The notes beneath the pieces were generated by a model. It did not search any database and had not been told where the DNA came from. It saw only the letters and a program-made list of their open reading frames with translations. A program made the translations under genes and the position numbers. Below are positions 10,783-58,765 of a DNA stretch of 64,000 nucleotides, one piece after another (the first letter of the stretch is position 1; each line of letters opens with the position of its first letter). Source of the stretch: Actinomycetes bacterium (GTDB lineage: Bacteria > Actinomycetota > Acidimicrobiia > Acidimicrobiales > Acidimicrobilacustridaceae); NCBI GenBank assembly GCA_029782145.1, contig JAKOVH010000031.1, positions 62,001 through 126,000 of the forward strand, in the 5' to 3' direction.

Positions 10783-10886
10783 ACCGCTGGCTCGATCCAT
10801 CACCTCCGAGGATCACCGATCGAGCCACCCTCCGGACCGCTGGCTCGATCCATCACCTCCGAGGATCATCGATCGAGCCAGCGGTC
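10783..10886. repeat. Tandem pair of dispersed palindromic elements
   Basis: Unit 1 has arms TGGCTCGATC (10788-10797) and GATCGAGCCA (10818-10827). Unit 2 has perfect 16-base arms at 10835-10850 and 10871-10886. Both centres read CATCACCTCCGAGGATCA. The family recurs at 21.5 and 42.5 kb. Unit 2 overlaps the end of the MarR gene and provides its stop codon. Confidence 0.85.
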
Positions 10887-11374
10887 TGGTCGGCGTCGGT
10901 GCTGAGGTAGGGGGTCGACTGCAGGTCGTCGACGAGGCGGAGGAGCAGGCGGCCGAGCTCGGCACGGTCCTCGTCGGGCCACTCGGCGAGGGCACGTGAG
11001 AGCTGGCTGCTGCGGACCCGCTCGAAGCGGCGGGCCATGGCTCGTCCTTGCTCGGTGGCGACGACGAGCACGACGCTGCGGTGCTGGGGGCTGGGACGGC
11101 GCTCGACCAGGCCCGCTTCCTCCAGCACCCGCACCTGGCGGCTCACCGCCCCCGCGTCCATGCGCGCCGCCCGGGCGAGGTCGCCCATGGGCAGCGGCTG
11201 GCGGTCGCCGAGGGCGCGCAGCACGTGCATGGCCTGCTGGGACAGGGTGACCCCGGCAGCCCCCGCCATGCCGGCGTGCACCCGGCGGCTCGCCAGCAGG
11301 CGGCCGAGCCGGGTGAGCCCCAGCCGGACGTCGCGCAGCTGGTCCTCGAGGGAGCTCGACTGGTCGATGCTCAC
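10853..11374 (-). CDS. MarR family transcriptional regulator
   Basis: A 173-residue winged-helix dimer regulator. The DNA-binding core reads SQQAMHVLRALGDRQPLPMGDLARAARMDAGAVSRQVRVLEEAGLVERRPSPQHRS, with the wing in VVLVVATEQGRA. MarR proteins usually repress adjacent catabolic genes and release DNA on ligand binding. It lies 37 bases downstream of the amidohydrolase on the same strand, so the two likely form an operon under the operator-bearing promoter near 12.67 kb. The last ~10 residues (TAGSIDDPRR) and the stop are encoded by the palindromic repeat, showing that an insertion replaced the native C-terminus. Confidence 0.88.
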   Translation of the reverse strand: MSIDQSSSLEDQLRDVRLGLTRLGRLLASRRVHAGMAGAAGVTLSQQAMHVLRALGDRQPLPMGDLARAARMDAGAVSRQVRVLEEAGLVERRPSPQHRSVVLVVATEQGRAMARRFERVRSSQLSRALAEWPDEDRAELGRLLLRLVDDLQSTPYLSTDADQTAGSIDDPRR

Positions 11375-17732: not shown

Positions 17733-17777
17733 GGGTCGTCCCTGCGCCCCGCCCGCCACGGGGCGCACGGACGACCC
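17733..17777. terminator. Two-tier terminator hairpin after the hemerythrin gene
   Basis: Outer arms GGGTCGTCC/GGACGACCC (17733-17741 with 17769-17777) and inner arms TGCGCCCCG/CGGGGCGCA (17743-17751 with 17759-17767) leave a 7-base loop. It sits just downstream of the minus-strand stop at 17785. Confidence 0.7.
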
Positions 17778-21501: not shown

Positions 21502-21587
21502 CGCCGGCTCGATCGACTCCCTCCGCCACCATCACACCTCCGCTGGCTCGATCGATCACCTCATGAGGTCATCGATCGAGCCAGCGG
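21502..21587. repeat. Dispersed palindromic element with a degenerate half unit
   Basis: The complete unit spans 21540-21587: 48 bases, palindromic except for one central mismatch pair, with the core ACCTCATGAGGT. A degenerate left arm (CGCCGGCTCGATCGAC, 21502-21517) precedes it. It starts three bases past the P450 stop in the direction of that gene, between the P450 and amidohydrolase genes. Confidence 0.85.
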
Positions 21588-41785: not shown

Positions 41786-43183
41786 ATGGGTGAACGGGTT
41801 CGAGTTGTGCGCGACGACGACGGCCGTCTCCTGGCCGTCAAGCAGCCGGTCGTCGGGGGCGAAGCAGCAGCCCACGCCGAGGTCGCGCTGCTGCGCCGGG
41901 CGCAGATGCCGGGCGTCGTGGAGCTGCTCGAGGGCGGCGGCCCCGCTCCTCACGTCGTGGTCACCCGGTGGGTGGGCGCGCGGTCGTTGGCCGACCTCGA
42001 GCCGCCCCTCTCACCCGAGCGTGCCGCCGCCCTCGTGCTCGCCGTCTCGGCGACCGTCGCCCAGCTGCATCGGCTGGGCGTGGTCCACGGCGCCGTGGAA
42101 CCGACGCACGTGCTGCTCGACGGGATGGGACGGCCGGTGCTGTGCGGCTTCGGCCGGGCCGCACGAGACGGCTCGGGCCTGCGCCCCGCCGTCGACGTGG
42201 CCGCGCTGGGCCACCTGCTCAGCCACCTGGTCGGCGGGCCCGAGGCCGTCGACCGCCAGCAGCTGCGGCGCGGTGGGCGGGGGCGCACCACCGCGGCCCG
42301 CCGCCGCGCCCTGCTCGCCGTCGCCGCCCAGGCCACGGTCGACGACCCCTCGTGCCGGCCGTCGGTCGCTGCGCTCGTCCACGGCATCCGGCGGGCGGTG
42401 CCCGACGCCCGACTCCTGGAGCTGCCCGACACCGACGAGGCGCCGGAGCCGATGGCGACGGACCGACCCGGCGCTGATCCCACGACCGCTGGCTCGATCG
42501 GTGACCTCATGAGGTCACCGATCGAGCCAGCGGACGGGGTGACGGCCGGGCCCGGCGAGCTCGACGACCTCGAGCGCCTCCGGCAGGGGCTCAGCTCCCC
42601 CGAGTGGCTCGACGACTCCGAGCGGGGCCTGATCCGCACCTGGGCGCCCGTCGCGGCCGCGGTGCTGGCCATCGGGGCGACCACCTACGTCGGGTTGTCG
42701 GTCTGGCGATCCTCTTCGACCCCGGCCGTCGACGCCGCAGCACCTCCCGCGGCCCGCCCGGCCGACAGCGGCTCCCCGAGCACCCGCCCGCCGACCACCA
42801 GGCCCTCGACCAGCTCGACGACGACCTCGACGACGGTCTCCACGAGCGCGACGACCACCGCCCCGACCACAGCGGCCGCGGCGCCGGTGGTGGAGCACGA
42901 CGGTCGCCGCTACCAGGTCGGCGAGCCCGGCGACGTCATCGCGGTCGGGCCGTGGCTGTGCGACGGTCGCGACCTGGTCGCGGTGCTGCGCCCCGCCACC
43001 GGGGCGATCCACGTGTTCCGCGACTGGGCCGCCCAGGGCGGCTCGCTCGACGCGACCCTCTCCACCACGGTGAGCCGAGCCCGCTCGCTCGCCCCGGCCG
43101 CCGAGGGCCCGGGGTGCGCCGGGCTGGTCGTCACCACCGCGTCTGGCACCACCGTCGCCCTGACCACCGAGGAGCTCCGATGA
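41786..43183 (+). CDS. Transmembrane protein-kinase-like protein (pseudokinase) with extracellular domain
   Basis: A 465-residue protein. Residues 1-215 follow a Ser/Thr-kinase fold, but the catalytic loop is VVHGAVEPTHVLLD instead of H-R-D-x-K-x-x-N and the metal loop is LCGFGRAAR instead of D-F-G. ATP-lysine AVKQP and Glu are recognisable. Residues ~234-250 (AGSIGDLMRSPIEPA) are encoded by a dispersed palindrome. One membrane helix follows at ~285-308 (APVAAAVLAIGATTYVGL), then a Thr/Ser-rich linker and a 100-residue extracellular domain (VEHDGRRYQVGEPGDVIAVG). The start could also be ATG 41768. It overlaps the LysM gene (ATGA). Confidence 0.8.
   Translation: MGERVRVVRDDDGRLLAVKQPVVGGEAAAHAEVALLRRAQMPGVVELLEGGGPAPHVVVTRWVGARSLADLEPPLSPERAAALVLAVSATVAQLHRLGVVHGAVEPTHVLLDGMGRPVLCGFGRAARDGSGLRPAVDVAALGHLLSHLVGGPEAVDRQQLRRGGRGRTTAARRRALLAVAAQATVDDPSCRPSVAALVHGIRRAVPDARLLELPDTDEAPEPMATDRPGADPTTAGSIGDLMRSPIEPADGVTAGPGELDDLERLRQGLSSPEWLDDSERGLIRTWAPVAAAVLAIGATTYVGLSVWRSSSTPAVDAAAPPAARPADSGSPSTRPPTTRPSTSSTTTSTTVSTSATTTAPTTAAAAPVVEHDGRRYQVGEPGDVIAVGPWLCDGRDLVAVLRPATGAIHVFRDWAAQGGSLDATLSTTVSRARSLAPAAEGPGCAGLVVTTASGTTVALTTEELR
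42486..42533. repeat. Perfect 48-bp palindrome inside a coding sequence
   Basis: Left arm 42486-42509 is the exact reverse complement of 42510-42533, with no loop. The core is GGTGACCTCATGAGGTCACC. It is a member of the family at 10.8 and 21.5 kb (shared CGCTGGCTCGATC). It is 16 codons long, so the reading frame is kept. Confidence 0.95.
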
Positions 43184-58623: not shown

Positions 58624-58662
58624 CCCTGTCCGCACGGATCGGTCAGCGTCCCTCGCTCCCGT

Positions 58663-58715
58663 CGTTCTGGTGGAGGTTCACCCCCCGATCCGGTGGCCGA
58701 TCCTCCACCAGAACG
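58663..58715. terminator. Inverted repeat between convergent PAC2 and leuS genes
   Basis: CGTTCTGGTGGAGG (58663-58676) pairs with CCTCCACCAGAACG (58702-58715), 25-base spacer. It lies between convergent stops and likely serves as a bidirectional terminator. Confidence 0.6.
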
Positions 58716-58765
58716 CCGAGGAGAAGGAGGAGGAGGAGGAGTAGGAGGAGGCGGAGGAGGATGAG
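58716..58765 (+). repeat. GGA-rich purine tract
   Basis: About 50 bases of near-perfect GGA/GAG repeats (interrupted by one T and one C) just downstream of the convergent terminator. It is non-coding and could slip in replication. Confidence 0.7.

Follow-up and report, generated by a model that had tools for sequence, protein, structure and literature searches.

A fixed-length 48-bp palindromic repeat family in an actinobacterium, with sites shared between sister species and inner sequences that differ between them

Introduction

Bacteria commonly carry short palindromic repeats, and how the uniform sequence of such repeats is kept up is poorly known. The systems closest to the one described here are the REP elements, the Rickettsia palindromic elements (RPE), bacterial MITEs and bidirectional intrinsic terminators. 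REP elements belong to a GTAG superfamily with RAYT transposases (PMC3733652); they are dispersed palindromes of 20-40 bp, lying mainly 3' of genes that are convergent or run in the same direction, often in groups and sometimes within genes, those for replication and repair included. RPE are 105-146 bp long (PMC2229807), a CGTC end tag has been reported for them (PMC3733652), and they occur between genes and, with many coding insertions, in frame in unrelated genes, no dedicated transposase being known (PMC2229807, PMC3733652, PMC10969869). MITEs are non-coding, multi-copy elements with inverted-repeat ends that can give in-frame fusions, and bidirectional intrinsic terminators place a strong hairpin between convergent genes.

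Here we characterize a repeat family that came to light through a perfect palindrome in a 64-kb stretch (the window, by which we mean the whole stretch analysed) of a high-GC actinobacterial genome. The family resembles REP elements in its dispersal, its position downstream of genes, its grouping and its occasional genic copies, whereas its unit is 48 bp, its arrays are direct repeats spaced by whole helical turns (the spacers of REP dimers are variable, mostly 20-100 bp), its genome has no RAYT (Y1-type) gene, and the unpaired GTAG tag is found at 0/74, 0/52 and 0/26 ends in the source genome (G000), its sister species (G001) and one genome of a second genus (G218), or 0/152 in total. The preliminary description had likened the palindrome to RPE, and the likeness holds for behaviour, since in-frame, protein-tolerated copies do occur in unrelated genes, but not for kinship: all copies are 48 bp, the CGTC tag is present at 3/74 ends in the source genome and at none in G001 or G218, most copies are intergenic, and the host is from a different phylum, a high-GC actinobacterium and not an alphaproteobacterium. 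In its workings the family resembles a REP/RPE-type repeat, but we class it as a separate variant and not as a member, because the GTAG/RAYT and length/CGTC hallmarks are absent. The family also departs from MITEs in having no gap between its inverted repeats, no visible target duplication and no matching transposase ends, and from bidirectional terminators in being one homogenised family with genic copies and with T runs lacking in the high-GC species, although such runs are found in the lower-GC genus.

Results

A perfect palindrome in frame in a pseudokinase gene

The features of the window are as follows.

41786-43183, + strand: host gene, 465 aa, with a kinase-like domain, a variable linker carrying the insert, a membrane helix and a conserved C-terminal domain
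42486-42533, no strand assigned: 48-bp perfect palindrome, family member, in frame in the host gene
42490-42496 and 42523-42529: core half-sites of this palindrome, TGGCTCG and CGAGCCA
10784-10831, no strand assigned: family copy, first member of a pair with 53-bp spacing
10837-10884, no strand assigned: family copy, second of the pair, overlapping the 3' end of a MarR-type gene (10853-11374, - strand)
21540-21587, no strand assigned: intergenic family copy, lying 3 bp beyond the stop of a cytochrome P450 gene (21591-22802, - strand)

Comparison of the arms of 42486-42533 bears out the reading of a perfect palindrome, with 24/24 bases paired and no spacer between the two 24-base arms. Folded as single-stranded DNA it reaches −30.6 kcal/mol (z = −11.6), with 0/200 shuffles as good. 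In the host gene it contributes 16 extra codons in frame, translated as TAGSIGDLMRSPIEPAD, and these lie between the kinase-like domain and the membrane helix, as originally proposed, in a linker that proved variable. The kinase-like domain gives a weak Pfam Pkinase match below the cut-off and its HRD and DFG motifs are degenerate. Gene calls were made with a home-made, codon-usage gene finder that missed this gene, so the call of 41786-43183 rests on homology.

The 16-residue peptide is missing in each pseudokinase orthologue aligned across the linker, that of the sister species among them; distant orthologues sharing the peptide, an outcome that would have spoken against an insertion, were not seen. 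Both the length and the sequence of the linker vary among orthologues, and the exact ends of the insert are therefore not definable from them. Perfect palindromy is nothing special in this genome: 9 of the 57 family copies have identical halves, where 10.7 are expected from random pairing of halves, which rejects it as a selected trait.

A dispersed family in the source genome

A genome-wide search of the source genome (4.24 Mb draft, 34 contigs, 98% complete) confirmed the proposal of a dispersed repeat with relatives elsewhere and extended it well beyond the neighbourhood, to 57 copies at 37 loci, every copy exactly 48 bp. All share the core TGGCTCG-N26-CGAGCCA, the outer half-sites being essentially invariant. 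A covariance-model search of the 64-kb window found no copies further to those starting at 10784, 10837, 21540 and 42486. Relatives had been placed in intergenic DNA at 10.8 and 21.5 kb; relatives do exist at both places, but the first consists of two copies, of which the second provides the final codons and stop of the MarR-type gene (tail QTAGSIDD...). In the sister species the orthologous MarR-type gene stops before the element, and the site holds two copies 63 bp apart. Among the copies of the source genome half-sequences combine at random, and identical asymmetric sequences are found at up to five unlinked loci. The recurrence of such exact sequences is in keeping with copying, and not with convergence towards a binding consensus.

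The bases flanking the 48-bp unit are A or T at 97% of ends in this genome, and the true length of the unit may thus be 50 bp. A diverged palindrome at L025:1883-1930, TCGAACGTGGTCG...CCACGTTCGA (model E-value 0.47), is similar to an apparently older subfamily of the sister species and is perhaps a relic that escaped homogenisation.

Occurrence in relatives and covariation of the stem

The sister species of the same genus is represented by a fragmented metagenome-assembled genome of 440 contigs ('uncultured actinobacterium SRR12456169_bin.11') and has about 44 exact cores of the same 48-bp length. Two genomes of a second genus in the family carry it with core and length unchanged, G218 in 17 copies and G239 in 2-3. 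By covariance search the element is present in 4/37 family genomes and was not found in the remaining 33. Across 298 genomes of the order, a looser scan gave elsewhere just single, non-palindromic chance matches, and in a class-wide scan of 395 genomes, a sample that did not include the sister species, only G000, G218 and G239 matched. Reversed-pattern controls gave no match.

The inner stems differ by species, being of the GGTGACCTCATGAGGTCACC type in the source genome, the CGCGCCCCTCCAGGGGCGCG type in the sister species and the TTTCTGGTTGC...GCAACCAGAAA type in G218. Despite the differing sequence, 88% of stem cells are paired, a figure that does not exceed 46% once the partner is slid; stem covariation is 0.34 against 0.15 in shuffles, and double-changed pair cells number 94 against 41. 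Of the two controls the slid partner is the safer, as related sequences beat shuffles more easily. No site common to both genera was found in the comparison made, which indicates that sites do turn over. Alongside the young, species-specific types, a GGTCGYC..GRCGACC inner stem occurs in the sister species (L172, L173, L176 and L169) and in G218 (C96, C146 and C213), and seems to be an older subfamily common to the two genera.

Shared sites with different sequence

The genes flanking the sites of the source genome were traced in the sister species, giving 22 testable junctions. At least 12 of these, some with only one flank assembled, hold the element in the sister species too (the 10.8-kb pair, L011, both L013 sites, L015, L021:2481, L022, L023, L027, L028, L033 and L037), the flanking proteins being mostly 63-93% identical. 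Under uniform placement the probability of this sharing is about 5e-16; we estimate that with placement limited to a few hundred favoured junctions it is higher, yet well below 1e-6. Beyond the 12 counted in the statistics, the L031/L175 junction holds a degenerate palindrome, and, in our reading of the sequence, there are arm remnants of the sister type (7-11 bases) at L016:2336, L030 and L034 and a decayed copy at L038. The other testable junctions are empty in the sister species, save L019, which has an ordinary GC-rich hairpin.

Orthology brings no added likeness between copies: orthologous pairs show 17.1 differences per 40 positions and random pairs across the two species 16.0 (permutation p = 0.54), whereas within a genome the figure is 3.6 for the source genome and 9.4 for the sister species. 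The nearest relative is always in the same genome, for all 57 copies of the former and all 43 of the latter. Since the two species have many of the same sites and different, species-specific sequences at them, the copies within one genome appear to have been rewritten together; as judged from these comparisons, the conserved sites undergo concerted turnover. Its simplest reading is gene conversion or overwriting through the common half-sites, and reinsertion at hot spots, or selection through a changing binding protein, are possible alternatives.

Array spacing

Thirty arrays in three genomes give 35 intervals, of 53 bp (11), 63 bp (19) or one base either side of these (5), and no other spacing was observed. 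Spacings of 52-54 and 62-64 bp correspond to five and six helical turns at 10.5 bp per turn. The spacer sequences are unlike between loci, and orthologous arrays change class, from 53 bp in the source genome to 63 bp in the sister species, at L027/L105 and at the 10.8-kb site/L173; by these two observations, the spacing does not stem from a single inherited array.

Gene context

Gene context was read from stretches of a few kilobases and from the 64-kb window with the home-made gene finder, rather than from whole genomes. The 32 intergenic loci of the source genome comprise 12 convergent, 16 same-direction and 4 divergent junctions; the convergent share, 12/32, compares with 9/60 junctions in the window (p = 0.0015). 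Same-direction copies are closer to the upstream stop in 23/28 cases over both species (p = 0.0009), and most copies lie within tens of bases of stop codons. Like intrinsic terminators, they are GC-rich hairpins after stop codons. The stretch between stop and element has C 0.62 and G 0.15, against 0.43 and 0.36 after other stops, with a similar trend in G001 and G218. C-rich and G-rich flanks were considered as parts of a longer, site-specific hairpin, and this was rejected, since pairing between cognate flanks does not exceed that of shuffled flanks. Runs of 4-5 T follow several copies in G218 and G239, the lower-GC genus; no U-tract follows the copies of G000 and G001, in which the longest T run within 12 bases is mostly 1-2. 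Such a context would suit an mRNA 3' end or a terminator working in both directions, with Rho perhaps taking part in the high-GC species.

Copies within genes

In-frame copies are found in four protein genes of the source genome, those of the pseudokinase, HldE, a DnaE2-type polymerase and an AcpS-Nnr fusion. These are 4/37 loci; a fifth in-gene locus, L026, was left out as a probable mis-called start. The HldE copy is located between the two domains of the protein, the insert in the DnaE2-type polymerase is lacking in all relatives compared, and the AcpS-Nnr linker has three copies at a 63-bp period, a position occupied by one copy in the sister species. The three single in-frame copies share one open frame (TAGSI...).

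The fusion of holo-ACP synthase and NAD(P)HX epimerase/dehydratase is a single ORF in several genera of the family (L015:1149-3110, - strand; L092:369-2195; L191-L205). It is present without the element in another genus, and we therefore reject the palindrome as its creator.

Searches for a mover or carrier

There is no match to PF01797 in the 98%-complete source genome, a search that was positive in 5/14 control genomes, and a RAYT or other Y1 transposase was accordingly ruled out as the mover. A parent element with distant ends was likewise rejected, all exact 12-base arms sitting at paired copies except for one singleton; a degenerate parent among arms with one mismatch is possible. No target duplication is visible in the flanks, the empty sites being too diverged to define ends. 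Phage and plasmid carriers were dismissed, as viral contigs gave no strict match, no phage matched and plasmid matches were weak and partial only; four loose viral matches are poor palindromes with other sequence. Rfam returned just sub-threshold microRNA hairpins, which we attribute to chance. No actinobacterial description of such a family was found in the literature searched, which lay outside subscription journals.

Discussion

On balance we lean towards a REP-like palindrome that would act mainly as a two-way 3'-end hairpin, be homogenised by copying and occasionally be tolerated in protein linkers. The palindrome of the pseudokinase gene would then be one copy of a REP-like, fixed-length, non-coding dispersed repeat family. 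As RNA it may form a strong hairpin past the gene end and serve from both sides as a transcription terminator or as the mRNA 3' end, a role that would retain the element at its sites, while a copying process acting through the conserved half-sites, either gene conversion or new copies overwriting old ones by way of a putative enzyme, would keep the copies uniform and now and then seed new sites. The pseudokinase copy may be a by-product, tolerated because its 48 bp amount to 16 codons, can be read in one open, hydrophilic frame and fall in a variable linker. The ordinary GC-rich hairpin at the sister's L019 site counts in favour of the terminator role; against it stand the 4/32 copies upstream of divergent genes and the 4/37 loci inside coding sequences of the source genome, where a terminator would be harmful, and the missing U-tracts of both sister species. 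Independently evolved, ordinary terminator hairpins, alike by chance or composition, would equally sit after stop codons, but the exact 48-bp length, the exact core, the identical inner sequences at unlinked loci and the empty reversed-pattern controls speak against them, and the shared exact haplotypes refute this reading, which we regard as scarcely credible.

The 3' bias could also reflect tolerated insertions of a selfish miniature element, that is, a non-autonomous mobile palindrome with a transposase acting on its ends, in which case the sister species would have hit the same hot spots or old copies would have served as targets. The patchy distribution (4/37 family genomes), the lack of a site common to the other genus in the comparison made and the missing insert in all pseudokinase orthologues and DnaE2-type relatives compared are in keeping with such an element; the genome without a Y1-type transposase, the exact arms confined to paired copies bar one singleton, with no distant-ended parent seen, the flanks without evident target duplication and the 12/22 shared junctions, far above chance under uniform placement, make it unlikely. 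Recurrent insertion at hot spots, instead of rewriting in place, retains some residual probability. Protein binding, by a dimeric DNA-binding or nucleoid protein on two TGGCTCG half-sites, with arrays aligning dimers on one face of the DNA and the inner sequence following changes of the protein, would account for the half-sites being the sole nearly invariant part across two genera, for their separation of 33 bp centre to centre, which with periods of 52-54 or 62-64 bp holds all sites in phase in the 30 arrays, and for the toggling of orthologous arrays between 53 and 63 bp (L027 and L105; the 10.8-kb pair and L173). However, the random combination of inner halves and the shared mismatched types fit copying better than selection on one consensus, the in-frame genic copies have no evident use and there is no candidate protein; we judge binding sites as such improbable, more so than the selfish element.

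A broader interpretation is possible, albeit doubtful: a fixed-length family rewritten in concert at dozens of fixed sites by a copying system, with a putative DNA-binding partner fixing the half-sites and the whole-turn spacing, could constitute a new class of bacterial repeat in which sites are conserved and sequence turns over. A pair of close species whose sites are the same and whose sequences differ, each set being uniform within its genome, offers a natural experiment on copying among dispersed 48-bp repeats, copying that would occur with no known transposase present, and the spacing by whole turns is suggestive of a protein partner. The family also extends protein-tolerated palindromes to actinobacteria, beyond Rickettsia and Wolbachia.

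Other strong hairpins lie near gene 3' ends in the window, at 1544-1588, 17733-17777 and 58660-58718; their sequences are unrelated to the family and they are probably ordinary terminators.
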